From IMG/VR virus record IMGVR_UViG_3300032213_001850, positions 1-64,000 of that record: DNA of 64,000 nucleotides, one strand, 5' to 3'. Position 1 is the stretch's first letter. Each line of letters starts with the position of its first letter. Under the pieces are notes generated by a model that saw nothing but the letters and a program-made list of their open reading frames with translations, did no database searches and had not been told where the DNA came from. This stretch comes from a virus. Below, in pieces: positions 3,456-10,602 of this stretch. Made by a program: the position numbers and the translations under genes.

Positions 3456-4901
3456 ATGAAAGCAGTATTAATAGCTACGGATTACATTAAAACACCAACA
3501 AATGATTACAAGGTTTTAGAAATAAACACCCAAGCGGCAATTATTGCAGATATGGATGTTTTAGACTGGACAGGTCTTACTAACTTTATTCAAAGTAATT
3601 CTTTTACAAACGTACATTGTATATTACCAACATACGATAAAAGATTCTCAGTTAAATTAAATCAAATTTGTGATTCTATTGGTGGAATCCAATACCAATC
3701 ATACGAAACAGGTGATAGTTCTATTACCGTACCATATATTGAAGATAATGATAATACACTTATTATAAGACTTTCATATGATACTACTGCAGTTATTGAT
3801 GATGAATATGCAAAAGATATGTATAATTTTTTAAGAGCAATAGGAGGCCAGACTTTTAACGCAAAAACATACATACCAAATATTGTTGATGATTTTTCAA
3901 ATATTGATGATTTTTCATATACATCAAATACACCAAATTTTATTATAAAAAAGAGATATCCAAATTATGATAAAAATTTACATCCTAGATTATACAAAAT
4001 TCAAAATTTAGCAGAATTAAATGCATTAAAAACGGAAGTTGAAGTAGATACCGAATTTTTACAAGAGTTTGTAGACTCAGAAATTTTATCTGGTAAAAGA
4101 ACAATTGTTAGAGGTATTGATATTATATATGGTGCCGATTTAAATGTTATTTCAATGGGTGGTTATAAGGTATCAAGCTTTATTAGAGAAGATATTTGGG
4201 AAACCACTTTTAACGAAACAGGTAAACTATCTAGCAAAGACAGACCTAAATATATAACTTATTACACAAATCTAACAGAATTAAGTGCATATATATACGA
4301 TGCCGACCAACTGGTTTTAATGGCAGATGGTAGTAGAAAAGAATTTTCACAATTAGAGACAGGTGATAGTGTAAAATCAATTTCATTATCAACTTTACCT
4401 TTGGATGAAACCGAATATAAAGTATCCGAGTGGTCTGGTAGTCACACCGAATTTATTGCAAATTTTGAAGTAAGTGAAACAGCGGTAGTAGTAAAAACAA
4501 CAAAAACGCAAAACAATTTTTTCATTAAAATAACCTTAGATGGTACAATAGAGTGGGATGATTTACCTGGAACACAAATTCTTGTTAGAGAAGATGATAT
4601 TATTAGATTCAAACTGGTTAATGAATTGGAAATCGGTGATGTAATGGAATTATTTAGTACCGAAACTGAAACTGTTGTAAGTAAAACTGTAACTGATTTA
4701 GAAATTACATTTAAAGAAAATGCAGAAGTCGGTTCAATTGATGTAGAACCACTTGATTTATTTTTACCATTAGTTACCAATACATTTGCAATTATACAAC
4801 ACAATGCATGTAATACTAACTTTTGTAGACAATATGGTCAGGATTGTAATTGGTACTACAAATGTACCGACTGTTCAGGAGTGCAATGTCCAGCTAAATA
4901 A
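3456..4901 (+). CDS. ATP-grasp-like / degenerate Hint domain protein with cysteine-rich C-terminal tail
   Basis: A 481-residue, three-part protein. Residues 1-270 have features that recall an ATP-grasp fold (YKVLEINT near 18; NFIIKKRYPNYD followed by LQEFVD); this is by eye only. Residues about 280-450 look like a Hint (intein/hedgehog) domain: the strand LVLMADGSRKEF, LETGDSV and LEIGDVM, and an end at His449-Asn450. The usual first Cys is replaced (Ile near 279) and no TxxH block is visible, so N-terminal cleavage should be lost. Residues 452-481 hold six of the protein's eight cysteines (452, 457, 464, 470, 473, 478). C-terminal cleavage at Asn450 could release a 31-residue Cys-rich peptide. 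The gene heads a run of modifying enzymes. A tail or neck protein with a Hint-derived domain is the alternative. Confidence 0.6.
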   Translation: MKAVLIATDYIKTPTNDYKVLEINTQAAIIADMDVLDWTGLTNFIQSNSFTNVHCILPTYDKRFSVKLNQICDSIGGIQYQSYETGDSSITVPYIEDNDNTLIIRLSYDTTAVIDDEYAKDMYNFLRAIGGQTFNAKTYIPNIVDDFSNIDDFSYTSNTPNFIIKKRYPNYDKNLHPRLYKIQNLAELNALKTEVEVDTEFLQEFVDSEILSGKRTIVRGIDIIYGADLNVISMGGYKVSSFIREDIWETTFNETGKLSSKDRPKYITYYTNLTELSAYIYDADQLVLMADGSRKEFSQLETGDSVKSISLSTLPLDETEYKVSEWSGSHTEFIANFEVSETAVVVKTTKTQNNFFIKITLDGTIEWDDLPGTQILVREDDIIRFKLVNELEIGDVMELFSTETETVVSKTVTDLEITFKENAEVGSIDVEPLDLFLPLVTNTFAIIQHNACNTNFCRQYGQDCNWYYKCTDCSGVQCPAK

Positions 4902-4917
4902 ATAAAAACAAATAATT

Positions 4918-5031
4918 ATGGAAATTATAAAAAATGATATAGTAGAAATTACTATTGAAGAAAAAACCGAAATTGCCAATATATTTCAAAGTATTATATT
5001 GAGTATTAAAAATGATATATTAAATCAATAA
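4918..5031 (+). CDS. Very small hypothetical protein (37 aa)
   Basis: A 37-residue frame (starting MEIIKNDIVEITIEEK) placed 16 bases after the Hint-domain gene and ending just before the promoter element at 5035. It is acidic, then Ile/Leu-rich, and probably forms one amphipathic helix; there is no membrane span. Ile-, Asn- and Glu-rich codon use matches its neighbours. It could be a small accessory or leader-like peptide for the modifying enzymes downstream, but no such motif can be shown, and a chance frame is possible. Confidence 0.35.
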   Translation: MEIIKNDIVEITIEEKTEIANIFQSIILSIKNDILNQ

Positions 5032-5070: not shown

Positions 5071-5349
5071 ATGGAAATTAATATTAAAGAAATAACAACC
5101 GCATGGTTTGATTCGTTTTGGGGTTCAAAAGAACAAAAACTCTTAGCACAAGATAGATTGGATATATGTCTTAAATGCCCATCAAAAAATGAGTTATTTA
5201 AAGATAAAGAATGGTCACTTTATTGTAAAGAATGTGGTTGTCCATTGAGTAAAAAAATATATTCAAATTTAAGAAATTCATGTCCATTGGGTAAATGGGA
5301 AGAAGCAGCAAAAAAACATGAAAGTGTTTTTATAAAAAAAATGTTATAG
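5071..5349 (+). CDS. Zinc-ribbon protein
   Basis: A 92-residue protein with CLKC near residue 33, then YCKECGCPL near 50-58 and SCPLGKW near 70-76. It probably binds one or two zinc ions. Small proteins with this 'CGCPL...CPLGKW' pattern are common next to modifying enzymes in marine phages; their role is not known to me. It follows a promoter element with no leader and ends two bases before the first oxygenase gene, so it is the first gene of the modifying-enzyme operon. A role in presenting a substrate or binding nucleic acid is possible. Confidence 0.6.
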   Translation: MEINIKEITTAWFDSFWGSKEQKLLAQDRLDICLKCPSKNELFKDKEWSLYCKECGCPLSKKIYSNLRNSCPLGKWEEAAKKHESVFIKKML

Positions 5350-5351
5350 AT

Positions 5352-5873
5352 ATGATTGCATCCATAATAGAATCTGTATATGGATTTTTAAGTGAAGAGG
5401 ATTTAAATTTATTAGATAATTTATGTGTTAATTTTGATATTGACACTTCAATTAGTACAACACCTAAAAAGGGAAATTTCTATTATAGAATGTTTGTAGA
5501 CAACGAAACTCAATTTATTGATTATCAAACTACTATTAAAACTCACATACAAAAAAAATATAAAGTTGATGTTGAAATAGCTGCTATTTGGATAAATAAG
5601 GTTACTTCCGAAACAAATAAAAATGATAAATTTCATCATGATGAATGTGATTTTACGGTTGTATCATATATTAATGATAATTTTGAAGGAGGAGAATTTA
5701 CATTTCAAAAAAATCAAACTCCACCCACCGAAAAAATAAAACCAAAAAGAAATTTAAGTTTAATTACAAACGATAAATTACCACACAAAGTATTACCCGT
5801 AACATCTGGTGAAAGATATTCATTAATAGTTTTTTGTGATATACCCAAAAAAAACAAAAAAACAATGTTATGA
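5352..5873 (+). CDS. 2-oxoglutarate/Fe(II)-dependent oxygenase
   Basis: A 173-residue jelly-roll oxygenase of the prolyl-4-hydroxylase-like class. The iron ligands can be read as His95, Asp97 (FHHDE) and His145 (LPHKV), and Arg155 (GERYSLI) is placed to hold 2-oxoglutarate. NFEGGEFTF between them is the usual beta-hairpin. Such enzymes hydroxylate proteins, nucleobases or small molecules; the substrate cannot be told from sequence. It overlaps the next gene by four bases (ATGA) and begins a run of four oxygenases in this operon, interrupted by one SET-domain gene. Confidence 0.85.
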   Translation: MIASIIESVYGFLSEEDLNLLDNLCVNFDIDTSISTTPKKGNFYYRMFVDNETQFIDYQTTIKTHIQKKYKVDVEIAAIWINKVTSETNKNDKFHHDECDFTVVSYINDNFEGGEFTFQKNQTPPTEKIKPKRNLSLITNDKLPHKVLPVTSGERYSLIVFCDIPKKNKKTML

Positions 5874-6496
5874 CGGAAATAAATTTAAATAATGAAGATA
5901 TAATTTATAAATCAAATTTAAAATTAGAACCTAGATTTGATAAACAAACATTTATAGAAAAATTAATAACTGTTGATAATTTAGTAAAAACTACTAATCA
6001 AAAATTTGGTGCCGGTGCACCGGGTAGACAATCAAGTTTGTCGAAAATGTATATACCTGAACTAATCTTTATAAAAGATAAAATTTGTGAACTATTATCT
6101 AAAACATTTAAAATTAGTAATAATTTCATAATTTATGATTGGTTATATTATAGTGATAAAGACAACGCTTATACTGGATATCATACTCATGATATATTAG
6201 CACCAATACAATCAAGTATTAACCACATTGATAACTTAAAAACAGATTATAGTTTCACTTATTATGTTCAAATGCCAAATAATTTAAAAGATAATCAAGG
6301 TAAATTATTTTTTAAAACAAAATCGGGTTATGAATTTTCAGTATTACCTGAAGAAGATGATATTTTTATTTTTCCAGGTGATTTACAACACAAACCAGAA
6401 ATTAATCCAAATTCTACTAAATCAAGAATAGTGGTCGCGGGTAATGTTGCGTTTTTTGATAATCATATTGCAAAAAGTAAAAAAACTTTTTTATAA
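5870..6496 (+). CDS. 2-oxoglutarate/Fe(II)-dependent oxygenase, divergent type
   Basis: A 208-residue protein with YHTHD at 104-108 giving the first iron ligands, FPGDLQHKPEINP at 168-180 giving the distal His174, and Arg186 in a strand (SRIVVAGNV) for 2-oxoglutarate. This layout resembles the TIGR02466-type putative oxygenases often found in marine phages, and it is clearly different from the three other enzymes in this operon. It has an ATGA-type start/stop overlap with the preceding oxygenase. Substrate unknown. Confidence 0.75.
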   Translation: MTEINLNNEDIIYKSNLKLEPRFDKQTFIEKLITVDNLVKTTNQKFGAGAPGRQSSLSKMYIPELIFIKDKICELLSKTFKISNNFIIYDWLYYSDKDNAYTGYHTHDILAPIQSSINHIDNLKTDYSFTYYVQMPNNLKDNQGKLFFKTKSGYEFSVLPEEDDIFIFPGDLQHKPEINPNSTKSRIVVAGNVAFFDNHIAKSKKTFL

Positions 6497-6510: not shown

Positions 6511-6876
6511 ATGAATGTTATAAATACAAACCCAAAACTATATCTTAAATATATTGATGATATAAAAGGATTTGGTGTTTTTACTAACCAAAAGATTAAG
6601 AAGGGGGAATTAATTGAAGAATGTTATTCTCTTTGTGTTGATAAATCGGTTAATGGATTTGACCCTTACAATTTTTATTATAGAGGAGATAGTAGATTAT
6701 TACCACTTGGATTTGGTATGATTTATAATCATAATAATAGTGCAAATATTGGCTGGAAAATTATTGATGAAAACAAGAAAATTATAAACTTTTTTGCACT
6801 TACTGATATTGATATAGATTATGAACTTTGCCATAATTACGGACCGTTATATTTAAAACATAGACCATTATTATGA
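6511..6876 (+). CDS. SET-domain protein (putative lysine methyltransferase)
   Basis: A 121-residue minimal SET domain. The N-terminal SAM-binding strand is KGFGVFTNQKIKKGELI (19-35), the NHxxxxN motif is YNHNNSAN (72-79), and the pseudoknot motif is ELCHNYG (105-111) with its catalytic Tyr. Together these are the core signatures of SET methyltransferases, which transfer methyl from SAM to protein lysines. Pre- and post-SET cysteine clusters are missing, as is usual in short viral and bacterial forms. It lies between oxygenase genes and overlaps the next by four bases. The target protein is unknown. Confidence 0.8.
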   Translation: MNVINTNPKLYLKYIDDIKGFGVFTNQKIKKGELIEECYSLCVDKSVNGFDPYNFYYRGDSRLLPLGFGMIYNHNNSANIGWKIIDENKKIINFFALTDIDIDYELCHNYGPLYLKHRPLL

Positions 6877-7460
6877 TTTATCAAGAAAAAATATTTACAA
6901 AAGAAGAATGTGATAAAATTATATCTTATCAAAATGTATATTTAGATTTACTTTTTAGAGATAAAGAACCATCTATTGATTTAGAAAACAGAAGAATAGA
7001 TAATGTGGGCATGGTTATCAAAGGTAAAAAATTAGGTAAATTTTTTAATGTTTGGGATATTGTAAATAATAGTGAATCGGAATGGATGTTTGAAAAACTA
7101 TTTAATTGGTTTTCAAATGTTTCAAAAATTCAATTGAATCCAAATAATAAACCATATGGTTGTTCTTTGCATAAATACTCAAAAGGTGATTCTTTTACAA
7201 AACACATAGATTTGAATACTAATTTTCCAGATAGAAGATGGAATTTGGGAATACAATTAAATGAGGATTATACTGGTGGTGAATATATTTGTTATGATAA
7301 TAACAACAACGAAATAGTATTAAGTAAAGAAGTAGGTACTGCAGTAGCATATAATTCTACAACCTTACATGAAATAAAAGAAATACTTTCAGGAGAAAGA
7401 TGGTCAATTGTTGTACCTGTGTGGAAAAATTACTTATTAGAAAAAAATAATTTACTATGA
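6873..7460 (+). CDS. 2-oxoglutarate/Fe(II)-dependent oxygenase (P4H type), tandem copy 1
   Basis: A 195-residue P4H-type oxygenase. Iron ligands His111 and Asp113 (KHIDLN) and His166 (LHEI), with Arg176 (GERWSIV) for 2-oxoglutarate; YTGGEY lies between them. The next gene is a close paralogue with the same start (MIYxEKIFTxEEC) and the same motif spacing, so the pair arose by tandem duplication. Start and stop overlap by four bases on both sides, which suggests coupled translation. Substrate unknown; hydroxylation of a protein or glycan residue is the general expectation. Confidence 0.87.
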   Translation: MIYQEKIFTKEECDKIISYQNVYLDLLFRDKEPSIDLENRRIDNVGMVIKGKKLGKFFNVWDIVNNSESEWMFEKLFNWFSNVSKIQLNPNNKPYGCSLHKYSKGDSFTKHIDLNTNFPDRRWNLGIQLNEDYTGGEYICYDNNNNEIVLSKEVGTAVAYNSTTLHEIKEILSGERWSIVVPVWKNYLLEKNNLL

Positions 7461-8017
7461 TTTATTATGAAAAAATATTTACATATGAAGAATGTAAAAC
7501 CATTATAGGGTATCATAAAACATATAAAGAATTAGAAGGATGGTTTCCAAAAGAAAATATTAAGGGACAAAGAACATCAGATAGGCGTAAATCATTTTCA
7601 TATGAAGTTTATGTCATTCCAAATAATAATGAAACTGAATGGTTTTTTGATAGATTGATAAAATGGTTTAGTAAAAATAATAATATAAAAATTAACGAAA
7701 ATAATAAAATACCATCATGTACATTACACCGATATACAAAAGGTGACCTTTTTAAAAAACATATAGATTTAACAAAAGAATTTCATGAACGTAGATATAA
7801 TTTAGGAATACAATTAAATGATGAATATTTTGGTGGAGAATATAAAGCATGGGATGATAATGATATTGAACATACTTTACCAAAAGAGCCAGGGACCGCA
7901 ATTTCGTATCATTGTAGAATATTACATGAAATAAAAGAAATTTTAGATGGTGAAAGATGGTCAATTGTTTTACCAATAGAAAAAGATTTTATTATTGAAC
8001 CAAAACATTTTTTATAA
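7457..8017 (+). CDS. 2-oxoglutarate/Fe(II)-dependent oxygenase (P4H type), tandem copy 2
   Basis: A 186-residue paralogue of the preceding gene. His102, Asp104 (KHIDLT), His157 (LHEI) and Arg167 (GERWSIV) are all kept, so both copies should be active. The N-terminal half has diverged more than the catalytic half, which hints at different substrates. The stop and next start share one base (TAATG). It belongs to the modifying-enzyme operon. Confidence 0.87.
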   Translation: MIYYEKIFTYEECKTIIGYHKTYKELEGWFPKENIKGQRTSDRRKSFSYEVYVIPNNNETEWFFDRLIKWFSKNNNIKINENNKIPSCTLHRYTKGDLFKKHIDLTKEFHERRYNLGIQLNDEYFGGEYKAWDDNDIEHTLPKEPGTAISYHCRILHEIKEILDGERWSIVLPIEKDFIIEPKHFL

Positions 8018-8715
8018 TGTCTTTATTAATTAATAATGAATTAATATGGGTATCTGTGCCTAAGTGTGCAAGTTTTTCAATTGAAGTGGCCTTATTAAAA
8101 TCTAATTTAGATATAATACAACATTCGAAAGCCAATAAAAATCAAAAACACCATACCCATATTGCTTTACACATATTAAAAGAAGAATTTGGTGATAAAA
8201 AAAGTATATGTATTAAAAGAGATTGGTTTGAAAGATGGTTAAGTTCTCTACAATATATTTTAGAAAACATAAAACTTAATAATAGTTTGAAACTAATTAA
8301 AGAATGGAAAGATGTTGATAATCAATTTATATATGATACATTTACCGATGAGTTTTCAAATGTATTTCATTCAGGAGAAACAAAATCAGAAAATATATGT
8401 TATGGTAAATTTTTAAAAAATAAAGAAGAAATAATTAAATTTGACAAAAAATCTTCTTTTCATATGCAGAAATTATCAACACTTTTTTCTCAAAATCACT
8501 GGAAAGAAAATAATAAATGTGATTATGAATTTGACATAAACGAAATAGATAAATTTGTAGATTTTATAGAGGAACGATTTGGAGAAAAATTAATAATTAA
8601 TAAACTAAACTCAAACCCAAAAGCAAAAAGTAAAATAATTATAAATGATGAGTTAAAATCGTTTATTTGGGATAAGTTTGAAAAAAGATATAATAAAAAA
8701 AATTATTTGTTATAA
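8017..8715 (+). CDS. Sulfotransferase-like protein
   Basis: A 232-residue protein with the PAPS-binding signatures of cytosolic/Golgi-type sulfotransferases. The 5'-phosphosulfate loop is VPKCASFSIE at 14-23, and the 3'-phosphate strand and helix are SICIKRDWFERWLSS at 63-77. The family moves sulfate from PAPS to sugars, lipids or tyrosines. It has no membrane anchor, so it acts in the cytoplasm, presumably with host PAPS. It lies between an oxygenase and an SGNH hydrolase in one operon. A second sulfotransferase-like gene (10649) ends the same cluster. Confidence 0.75.
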   Translation: MSLLINNELIWVSVPKCASFSIEVALLKSNLDIIQHSKANKNQKHHTHIALHILKEEFGDKKSICIKRDWFERWLSSLQYILENIKLNNSLKLIKEWKDVDNQFIYDTFTDEFSNVFHSGETKSENICYGKFLKNKEEIIKFDKKSSFHMQKLSTLFSQNHWKENNKCDYEFDINEIDKFVDFIEERFGEKLIINKLNSNPKAKSKIIINDELKSFIWDKFEKRYNKKNYLL

Positions 8716-8743: not shown

Positions 8744-9556
8744 ATGAAAATTTTAAAATATTGGACGGCAGATGAGTTTGAAGTTGCATCTTATAAATGG
8801 AATTTATCAAAAAGAAAAAATAGTATATGGAAAGAATCGGGTAGTGATAAAACTCGTAAATGTACTTACACATATAACGAATTAGGTTTTAGAGGTGATA
8901 GTATTAAAAAAGATGGATTTAAAATCATGTCTTTGGGATGTTCTCATACTGAGGGTGTTGGTGTAAATGATGATGAATCTTGGCCGGCACAATTCACAAA
9001 ATTAATTCCGAATGGTGTTAATATGAACTTTGGAACAGGCGGAAGAAGTGGTGATTTTGTAGTAAGATGTTTAATGAGTTATTATGATTTGATTAAACCA
9101 GATTTAGTATTAATTTTATACCCACCTATCAATAGAAAAGAAATATATACTGCGGATGGTGGAATTGAACCATATATGGCAACATCTGCATGGGGATATA
9201 TGGAAGAAACCGAAGAGGGTAGACTTATCCAAAAAAATTTACTTGAAATTCAAAATACTAATCATGATTTTGTAAATTGGTATAAAAACCATCAATTGGT
9301 AAAATTATTTTTAGAATCCAAAAAATGTAATTTTATTTGGAATGGAAGTTTAACACAATCACCTTATAAAGATGAATTTAGATATGATGGAGATTTTTTT
9401 GTAAATATAATAGATAGAGGTGTTGATGGTAGACATTGCGGCCCAAAACATCTTAAAAATTATGCAACAAAGTTATATGACCATATTAATAATAATTTTC
9501 CTAATTTTTTATTAAATGATAAAACTCAATTAAATGTTAAAAAAGATTTAATATAA
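8744..9556 (+). CDS. SGNH/GDSL-type hydrolase
   Basis: About 270 residues from the ATG at 8744. An upstream in-frame ATG at 8678 would overlap the sulfotransferase gene by 38 bases and add an unconserved-looking basic stretch, so I prefer 8744. MSLGCSHTEGVGV is the block I nucleophile motif (GCS in place of GDS), FGTGGRSGDF carries the block II Gly, and DGRHCGPKHLKNYA supplies the DxxH of block V. Such enzymes remove acyl groups or other esters from sugars and lipids. The protein has no signal peptide, so the target is likely intracellular. Confidence 0.75.
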   Translation: MKILKYWTADEFEVASYKWNLSKRKNSIWKESGSDKTRKCTYTYNELGFRGDSIKKDGFKIMSLGCSHTEGVGVNDDESWPAQFTKLIPNGVNMNFGTGGRSGDFVVRCLMSYYDLIKPDLVLILYPPINRKEIYTADGGIEPYMATSAWGYMEETEEGRLIQKNLLEIQNTNHDFVNWYKNHQLVKLFLESKKCNFIWNGSLTQSPYKDEFRYDGDFFVNIIDRGVDGRHCGPKHLKNYATKLYDHINNNFPNFLLNDKTQLNVKKDLI

Positions 9557-10602
9557 TGAAAGAAGATATATTAAAACAATACATATGTACAACACCATTT
9601 GTTTATTTAGAAGTACATAAAGGTGGGGTACATAGTTGTTGTCCGTCCTGGTTACCAAATAAAATTTCTAGTTTAGAAGATATTGATAAAGCGTGGGGAA
9701 GTGAAGAATTAAAAAAAGTACAAGAATCAATTTTAGATGGTTCATACAAATATTGTTCAAAAACAGAATGTCCGTATTTATCGGAATTACTTATTACTGG
9801 TAGTAAACCAAAAGGATTTATTGATAAAACTAATTTTAATATTAATGATTATAAAAAAGGCCCTACTAATATAAATTTTGCATTTGATAGAAGTTGTAAT
9901 TTATCATGTCCATCTTGTAGAAATGTTGCAATTATGGCAGATGGAACGGAATTGGAATTTATTGATGATACGATAAATAAAATTGTTGATGTGTATGGAA
10001 AAAATATAAAGATGTTATACCTTTCAGGTTCAGCCGACCCATTTGCATCTAAATCTTTTAGGAAATTTTTATTAGAATTTGACAAAAACAAATTACCAAA
10101 TGTAAATCATATTCATCTACATACCAACGCATTATTATTAACTGAAAAAATGTGGAATAGTTTAGGTCACATACATGATTTAATAAAAACCATTGAAATT
10201 AGTATTGATGCTGCAAATGAAGAAACTTATAAAATTGTTAGAAGAGGTGGCGATTGGCAAACATTGTTAAATAATTTAGATTTTATATCAACAATAAAAC
10301 TTCGTAACAAAAATGTTTCTTTTGTTGTACAAGATACGAATTATTTAGAAATGGAAGATTTTTATATATTGATGAATAAAATTTTTAAAAATAATATAAA
10401 TGTATTTTTTAATAAAATAACAAATTGGGGAACATACACATCATCAGAATATGCTATTAAACAAATATGGAATGAATCACATCCAGAATTTCAAATGTTT
10501 TTACATCAGCTTGATAAAATTAATAAAAAATATAAGTGTACCCACAATATGCATGATATAATTGATAAATATTTACCTAAAAAAATAAATGGTTTAATAT
10601 AA
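9556..10602 (+). CDS. Radical SAM enzyme with N-terminal SPASM-like cysteines
   Basis: A 348-residue enzyme with the [4Fe-4S] motif CNLSCPSC (Cys114, Cys118, Cys121) after the strand NINFAFDRS, which is the radical SAM signature. Ahead of it residues 11-72 hold a second cysteine set (C11, C28, C29, C67, C72), like the N-terminal SPASM/twitch-type cluster region of some phage and RiPP enzymes. SIDAANEETY around 217 is the usual mid-barrel strand. These enzymes use 5'-deoxyadenosyl radicals to modify peptides, sugars or nucleotides. It starts on the last base of the preceding stop and shares the operon with oxygenases and sulfotransferases. Confidence 0.85.
   Translation: MKEDILKQYICTTPFVYLEVHKGGVHSCCPSWLPNKISSLEDIDKAWGSEELKKVQESILDGSYKYCSKTECPYLSELLITGSKPKGFIDKTNFNINDYKKGPTNINFAFDRSCNLSCPSCRNVAIMADGTELEFIDDTINKIVDVYGKNIKMLYLSGSADPFASKSFRKFLLEFDKNKLPNVNHIHLHTNALLLTEKMWNSLGHIHDLIKTIEISIDAANEETYKIVRRGGDWQTLLNNLDFISTIKLRNKNVSFVVQDTNYLEMEDFYILMNKIFKNNINVFFNKITNWGTYTSSEYAIKQIWNESHPEFQMFLHQLDKINKKYKCTHNMHDIIDKYLPKKINGLI

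Follow-up and report, generated by a model that had tools for sequence, protein, structure and literature searches.

A putative phage precursor protein combining a permuted ATP-grasp-like domain, a Hint domain without Cys1 and a variable cysteine-rich peptide

Described systems that resemble the precursor

The protein studied here is encoded in a stretch of phage DNA of 64,000 nt (hereafter the window), which accounts for the greater part of an 81,379-base virus record. The closest described systems each resemble one part of it. BIL and Hint/Hedgehog autoprocessing domains have the fold and the terminal HN for Asn cyclisation in common with it, whereas the phage Hint domain lacks Cys1 and the TxxH block and is fused to an ATP-grasp domain and a Cys-rich peptide. 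In the PT-HINT polymorphic toxins (PMC3482391), a Hint domain likewise stands directly before a variable C-terminal cargo, and a small gene follows directly downstream. The present gene differs from them in that it belongs to a phage, carries a tiny cargo predicted to be of the disulfide type, has an enzyme at its N-terminus and contains no secretion module. Borosins are RiPPs in which the modifying enzyme is fused to the core peptide (PMC7878506); as in the phage protein, the enzyme and a substrate-like peptide share one chain, with the peptide at the C-terminal end. In the phage protein, however, an ATP-grasp domain takes the place of the N-methyltransferase, a predicted self-cleaving domain is built in, and modification of the peptide is a conjecture. 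The arrangement by which RiPPs are recognised, a precursor peptide beside or fused with an enzyme, is found here in the fusion and in the clustering of oxygenase genes, and these enzymes may act on the peptide. The precursor shows the defining features of neither PT-HINT toxins nor borosins in full.

The remaining comparisons concern single domains and neighbours. Glutathione synthetase, YgiC and YjfC share with the N-terminal domain the predicted fold and an ExN metal motif that precedes the ATP-binding Lys, although sequence similarity to these permuted ATP-grasp ligases is barely detectable and the phage domain is fused to Hint and peptide. The S74/ICA domain of phage tail spikes and MYRF (PMC3742443) shares its HMM family and the spacing of its Ser...Lys dyad with one subgroup of relatives; there it stands behind the Cys-rich segment of a Hint precursor, unlike the S74 domain of tail spikes, which follows a beta-helix fibre, and it is absent from the window's protein. 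VirX1 is a marine viral halogenase of cyanophage Syn10 (Gkotsi 2019, as cited in PMC10452541). In 23/34 contigs, flavin-dependent halogenases of its family occur close to the precursor gene, but the window's phage has no halogenase and cyanophages carry theirs without this precursor. Within the terms searched, the open-access full-text literature held no description of such an ATP-grasp-Hint-peptide precursor.

The precursor gene, its family and its predicted folds

The full precursor gene (positions 3456..4901, plus strand) is an intact ORF with an ATG start and encodes 481 amino acids, comprising the ATP-grasp-like domain, the Hint domain and the Cys-rich peptide. The full-length gene occurs in one copy only in the window's phage record. 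The precursor is also single copy in the large contigs that were checked, in which two additional weak matches proved to be other Hint proteins. An earlier note, made from the window alone, had described a 31-residue tail with six cysteines after His449-Asn450 and just two cysteines upstream. Reading of the ORF confirmed this, as the protein has eight cysteines, two in the body (C55 and C72) and the other six within the 31 residues that follow His449-Asn450, and the observation extends to a phage-only family of 107 confirmed stretches in IMG/VR. A first IMG/VR scan with the window protein as query yielded three close relatives; a second scan, with the alignment of close relatives as query, led to the 107 confirmed stretches, of which 80 were retained. 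The order N-terminal domain, Hint, HN and Cys-rich tail is found in nearly all complete relatives. The architecture is not a product of chance, because relatives at 29-86% identity preserve it entirely.

The 50,697 named phage records searched contained no relative, either at E<=1 with the window protein as query or at E<=0.01 with a main-clade member as query. A bacterial origin of the family was rejected, since one scan of GTDB genomes that used the family alignment returned 57 pattern matches, none of them a relative. The PDB sequence search returned chance matches only, for example to nanobodies. Few Shine-Dalgarno sites and A-rich upstream regions are the pattern of Bacteroidota. In the window, Shine-Dalgarno sites are present at 3/51 gene starts, the upstream regions are A-rich and the GC content is 29%; from these features, the host of the window's phage is probably a member of Bacteroidota. 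The phages of the family, which come from environmental sequence surveys, apparently infect Bacteroidota-type bacteria.

An AlphaFold2 model of the window protein, built on 41 diverse relatives, reached a mean pLDDT of 80.8. With residues 1-275 (3456..4280, plus strand), Foldseek returned YjfC (E 1.7e-6), YgiC (1.8e-5) and yeast glutathione synthase (2.3e-5). The invariant residues of this domain are D9, E22, N24, R105, D109, D115, K165, E204, R219 and D222. The metal-site-like motif D9...E22-x-N24 (LEINT; 3480..3527, plus strand) is invariant in 34/34 members of alignment A5. In ordinary ATP-grasps, such a metal-site element lies at the C-terminal end. Here it is N-terminal and is followed by K165, E204, R219 and D222, which is the permuted order of the site residues. 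Homology to ATP-grasp detected from sequence alone is weak, with RimK at E 0.057 in two members. The hhalign comparison with E. coli YgiC, which we take to group with the permuted ATP-grasp ligases, aligned D9...E22-x-N24 to DLAWDGTGEPKLLENNADT, with a probability of only 0.7% and an E of 0.085. On the strength of the model, residues 1-275 are predicted to form a permuted ATP-grasp like that of glutathione synthetase and YgiC, the glutathione synthetase group being known for this permutation (Polekhina 1999, cited in PMC2213659).

The Hint domain spans residues 276-450 (4281..4805, plus strand). Foldseek matched it to the BIL domain 6y75 (E 1.6e-8) and Hedgehog 1at0 (2.9e-8), and to inteins too. 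Both fold assignments of the earlier note, an ATP-grasp resemblance at the N-terminus and a Hint fold for residues 280-450, are borne out by these structural matches, and its remark that the usual Cys1 and TxxH are missing holds as well. Ile280 stands at the Cys1 place in the window protein; among 41 nonredundant relatives this position is His in 32, Ile in 7, Val in one and Ser in one, its equivalence to Cys1 being taken from a by-eye alignment to the second Hint domain of the relative L036. No TxxH block B is visible on reading the window protein sequence. His449-Asn450 (4800..4805, plus strand), the predicted Asn-cyclisation cleavage site, is strictly conserved: HN is invariant in 75/75 aligned main-family sequences and is present in 17/17 sequences of the S74-type subgroup. 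D395 and D434 are likewise invariant in the 41 nonredundant members, and Asp434 occupies the position of block F of inteins. The +1 residue after HN varies among S, A, P, T, Q, G, V and others and is Ala in the window. This free variation rules out ordinary splicing, and canonical intein splicing was rejected on the absence of Cys1, the absence of TxxH and the variable +1. Since Cys1 and TxxH are lost, C-terminal cleavage alone is possible for this Hint domain. The invariant HN and Asp434, the lost N-terminal nucleophile and the varying +1 residue fit a pattern that would be expected from selection for C-terminal Asn cyclisation only, in support of the earlier note's suggestion that a peptide may be released by cleavage at this end alone.

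The cysteine-rich segment and the genes around it

Residues 451-481 (ACNTNFCRQYGQDCNWYYKCTDCSGVQCPAK; 4806..4898, plus strand) constitute the predicted released peptide with its six cysteines. The pLDDT of residues 453-481 is below 50 in the AlphaFold2 model. In the 41 nonredundant members, Cys464, Cys470 and Cys473 are present without exception, and Cys452 and Cys457 are almost invariant. An even number of cysteines is found in 58/59 distinct main-family tails (53 with six, five with eight and one with seven) and in 17/17 S74-type segments, which have 67-108 residues and 6, 8, 10 or 12 cysteines; these counts are not phylogenetically independent and are inflated by shared ancestry. The S74-type segments differ strongly from one another in length and Cys number, the Cys spacing of the tail is very variable, and one additional CC...CC pair was acquired jointly. 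The even counts favour disulfides over a metal site, so that the tail cysteines would be paired. In pairs with a Hint identity of 0.85-0.995, the identity of the non-Cys tail positions is 0.74 as compared with 0.93 for the Hint domain. In the closest S74-type pairs, the identity of the non-Cys segment positions is 0.41, against 0.76 for the ATP-grasp domain and 0.76 for S74. The non-Cys tail positions evolve faster than the flanking domains. The variation is confined to loop residues within the preserved Cys frame, and there is no replacement by unrelated folds. A cargo that is held in a fixed frame and yet changes fast suggests a role of the peptide in conflict or recognition. A conserved Lys, conceivably a ligase site, was also seen near the C-terminus of the precursor.

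Three alternatives follow the Cys-rich segment, namely a natural stop in the main family, a second Hint domain with Cys1, or an S74 domain. The second Hint stands directly after the tail in L019 (6001-7923), L036 (6001-7917) and L061 (2076-3998). It has Cys1 (CFIGE or CFVGD) and a block that reads TVGHP or TIGHP, ends in VHN, and matches the Intein_splicing profile with a best E of 2.3e-12 and intein_Cterm above the cut-off. In these three relatives the peptide lies between a Hint domain without Cys1 and a complete Hint domain with Cys1, an order reminiscent of the way split inteins are arranged for cyclisation.

In the S74-type (L012-type) subgroup (L086-L104), a long and very variable Cys-rich segment ends in YCNxxK and is followed by the S74 chaperone. 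The best match to PF13884 has an E of 7.8e-4, below the curated cut-off, and tblastn gave 2e-4 to a putative chaperone of endosialidase. The S74 region has a confident local model in structure prediction; Foldseek on the S74 segment gave no match. Ser74 and Lys79 (Ser-x4-Lys) are invariant in the 14 sequences of alignment A6, and their spacing equals that of S578/K583, the catalytic pair of the S74 autocleavage domain (PMC3742443). The loss of S74 in L093 was dropped as independent evidence: a remnant of the S74 end lies after the stop in another frame, which points to a derived deletion or an assembly flaw. The S74 remnant is absent in L104. Autocleaving modules beyond the segment in relatives strengthen the idea that the segment is excised. 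The presence of two unrelated modules of this kind beyond the same variable segment would be hard to explain unless the segment is cut free, and so suggests that it is.

A small ORF of 37 aa (MEIIKNDIVEITIEEKTEIANIFQSIILSIKNDILNQ; 4918..5031, plus strand) lies directly downstream of the precursor gene. An ORF of 36-52 aa starts within 51 bases of the end of the precursor gene in 58/58 loci examined. Its C-terminal half is weakly conserved and often ends in IKxKHLS, and no significant Pfam or PHROG family was found for it. The next gene encodes a 92-aa Cys-rich zinc-ribbon-like protein (5071..5349, plus strand; phrog_13558), relatives of which are found near the precursor gene in 34/41 main loci and 15/16 S74-type loci. 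It is followed by 2OG-Fe(II) oxygenase genes (5352-5873, 5870-6496, 6873-7460 and 7457-8017, plus strand; PF13640, phrog_81), with a 121-aa ORF (6511-6876) between them. In seven contigs larger than 150 kb, 14/21 PF13640 matches lie within 5 kb of the precursor gene, where about 1.1 would be expected by area. A sulfotransferase-like P-loop protein (neighbour cluster 2; 8017..8715, plus strand) is found in 37/41 loci. One relative within this cluster matches the sulfotransferase phrog_3347. The genome-wide search for the sulfotransferase family PF13469 gave essentially nothing, with one match at 8e-4 below the cut-off, and this near-absence makes the sulfotransferase label of the neighbours weak. 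A Twitch-type radical SAM protein (9556..10602, plus strand; NF033640 at E 1.8e-17, below the curated cut-off) is found in 16/41 loci, and SGNH hydrolases are also among the neighbours.

The halogenases that lie near the precursor gene belong to the tryptophan-halogenase family. Trp-containing tails occur in 8/10 main-type contigs without a halogenase. A halogenase acting on tail Trp was rejected, as the association is real but does not follow Trp content, and the halogenase occurs without the precursor elsewhere. HTVC008M and cyanophage Syn10 have halogenases with 2OG oxygenases and without such a precursor, and the Syn10 set adjoins Gly-rich tail-fibre-like proteins.

Proposed release of the peptide and rival explanations

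We propose that an enzyme-autoprotease-peptide precursor frees a small disulfide-rich peptide by Asn cyclisation, with the neighbours tailoring it and the small ORF as a partner, and we give this reading somewhat better than an even chance. The ATP-grasp domain, with its conserved metal- and ATP-site residues, would act as a ligase. The Hint domain, having lost the Cys1 half and kept the HN half, would cut the chain after residue 450 by cyclisation of Asn450 and so free a C-terminal peptide of ~31 residues. The freed peptide would be oxidised to a compact disulfide form outside the reducing cytoplasm, its pairing being suggested by the parity of the cysteines. No export signal is evident in the precursor. 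The fused ATP-grasp enzyme might modify the peptide before or during release, and the neighbouring 2OG oxygenases, sulfotransferase-like proteins and halogenases might conceivably do so too; both steps are held with less confidence than the cut. The small ORF would be an obligate partner, perhaps a chaperone, a guide or an immunity peptide. In other lineages, the far end of the peptide may be trimmed also, by the second Hint domain with Cys1 or by the S74 autoprotease.

The S74 module points towards a trimeric virion appendage. According to the main rival explanation, the protein forms such a trimer as part of a tail or whisker, with the variable Cys-rich segment as its attached receptor-binding or surface tip, and the Hint domain is structural or a slow-cutting relic, like those in other structural proteins of phages. 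S74 chaperones mature tail spikes (PMC3742443), one subgroup carries S74, an S74-containing tail-fibre gene lies near the precursor in G015, other virion-like proteins of these phages have Hint domains, and fast-changing tips are typical of receptor-binding proteins. An ATP-grasp with conserved catalytic-site residues would nevertheless be odd in a fibre, there are no fibre repeats, and a trimerisation module is lacking in the main family. A relic should decay, yet HN is strictly invariant, and the second Hint domain with Cys1 right behind the peptide would sever an attached tip. No structural family was matched by the window protein; PHROGs with the name virion structural protein were matched by a few relatives, probably via Hint. 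We regard an attached virion tip as unlikely, although it is the alternative to be taken most seriously.

Another possibility is that the Hint domain frees an antibacterial peptide at lysis or entry, in the manner of polymorphic toxins, with the small ORF as immunity partner. HINT-released variable C-terminal toxins with immunity genes are known (PMC3482391), and the variable tip after Hint and the small ORF that follows the gene at every locus examined conform to that layout, but no known toxin domain or trafficking module was found with Pfam and NCBIfam, no trafficking signal was seen, and the tip varies at loops around its kept Cys frame, where toxin tips would be swapped for unrelated folds. 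Such a toxin-immunity pair amounts to a special case of the release model, and we consider it improbable. Least probable is that the six cysteines hold a zinc or Fe-S centre serving the ATP-grasp enzyme, with Hint a mere linker: CxxC-like pairs and the zinc-ribbon-like neighbour gene speak for it, but the near-perfect parity across 6, 8, 10 and 12 cysteines, the joint gain of the CC...CC pair and the very variable spacing speak against it, and the invariant HN and the far-side autocleavage modules would be left unexplained.

If the peptide is released as we propose, a processed disulfide mini-protein is a product of many uncultured phages, freed via a built-in half-intein, a release route not described for phages. 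The peptide would be a candidate substrate for phage oxygenases, sulfotransferases and halogenases without known targets. A wider claim is that the locus is a self-contained phage peptide-maturation system, in which a single chain unites ligase, autoprotease and core peptide and in which tailoring oxygenases, sulfotransferases and halogenases are encoded alongside. The system would free a modified disulfide-rich peptide and represent a class of ribosomal natural products that is new and specific to phages. We advance this claim tentatively, with doubt prevailing; if it is true, some of the halogenases and oxygenases carried by phages would gain a candidate natural substrate. The Hint domain, as a predicted natural C-cleaving domain without Cys1, may serve as a protein-release tag.

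Several minor observations were made in the same loci. The window is dense in auxiliary genes between 5870 and 17210, with 2OG oxygenases, sulfotransferase-like proteins, SGNH hydrolases, the Twitch radical SAM protein, and Hsp20-like and peptide-deformylase-like proteins. Most S74-type loci (L088 to L103) also encode, close to the precursor gene, a protein of 426-447 aa that is possibly glycosyltransferase-like. Other virion-like proteins with internal Hint domains are encoded at L122 and L123 (in G003, ~216 kb, and G011, ~163 kb), and these Hint domains have CLLFG/CLTID starts, THP/EHP blocks and HNK ends. Many proteins encoded downstream in the window end in KK-x-LL, FL or LI, most likely because the codons for these ends double as the A-rich region at the start of the following gene, with its stop-start overlap.
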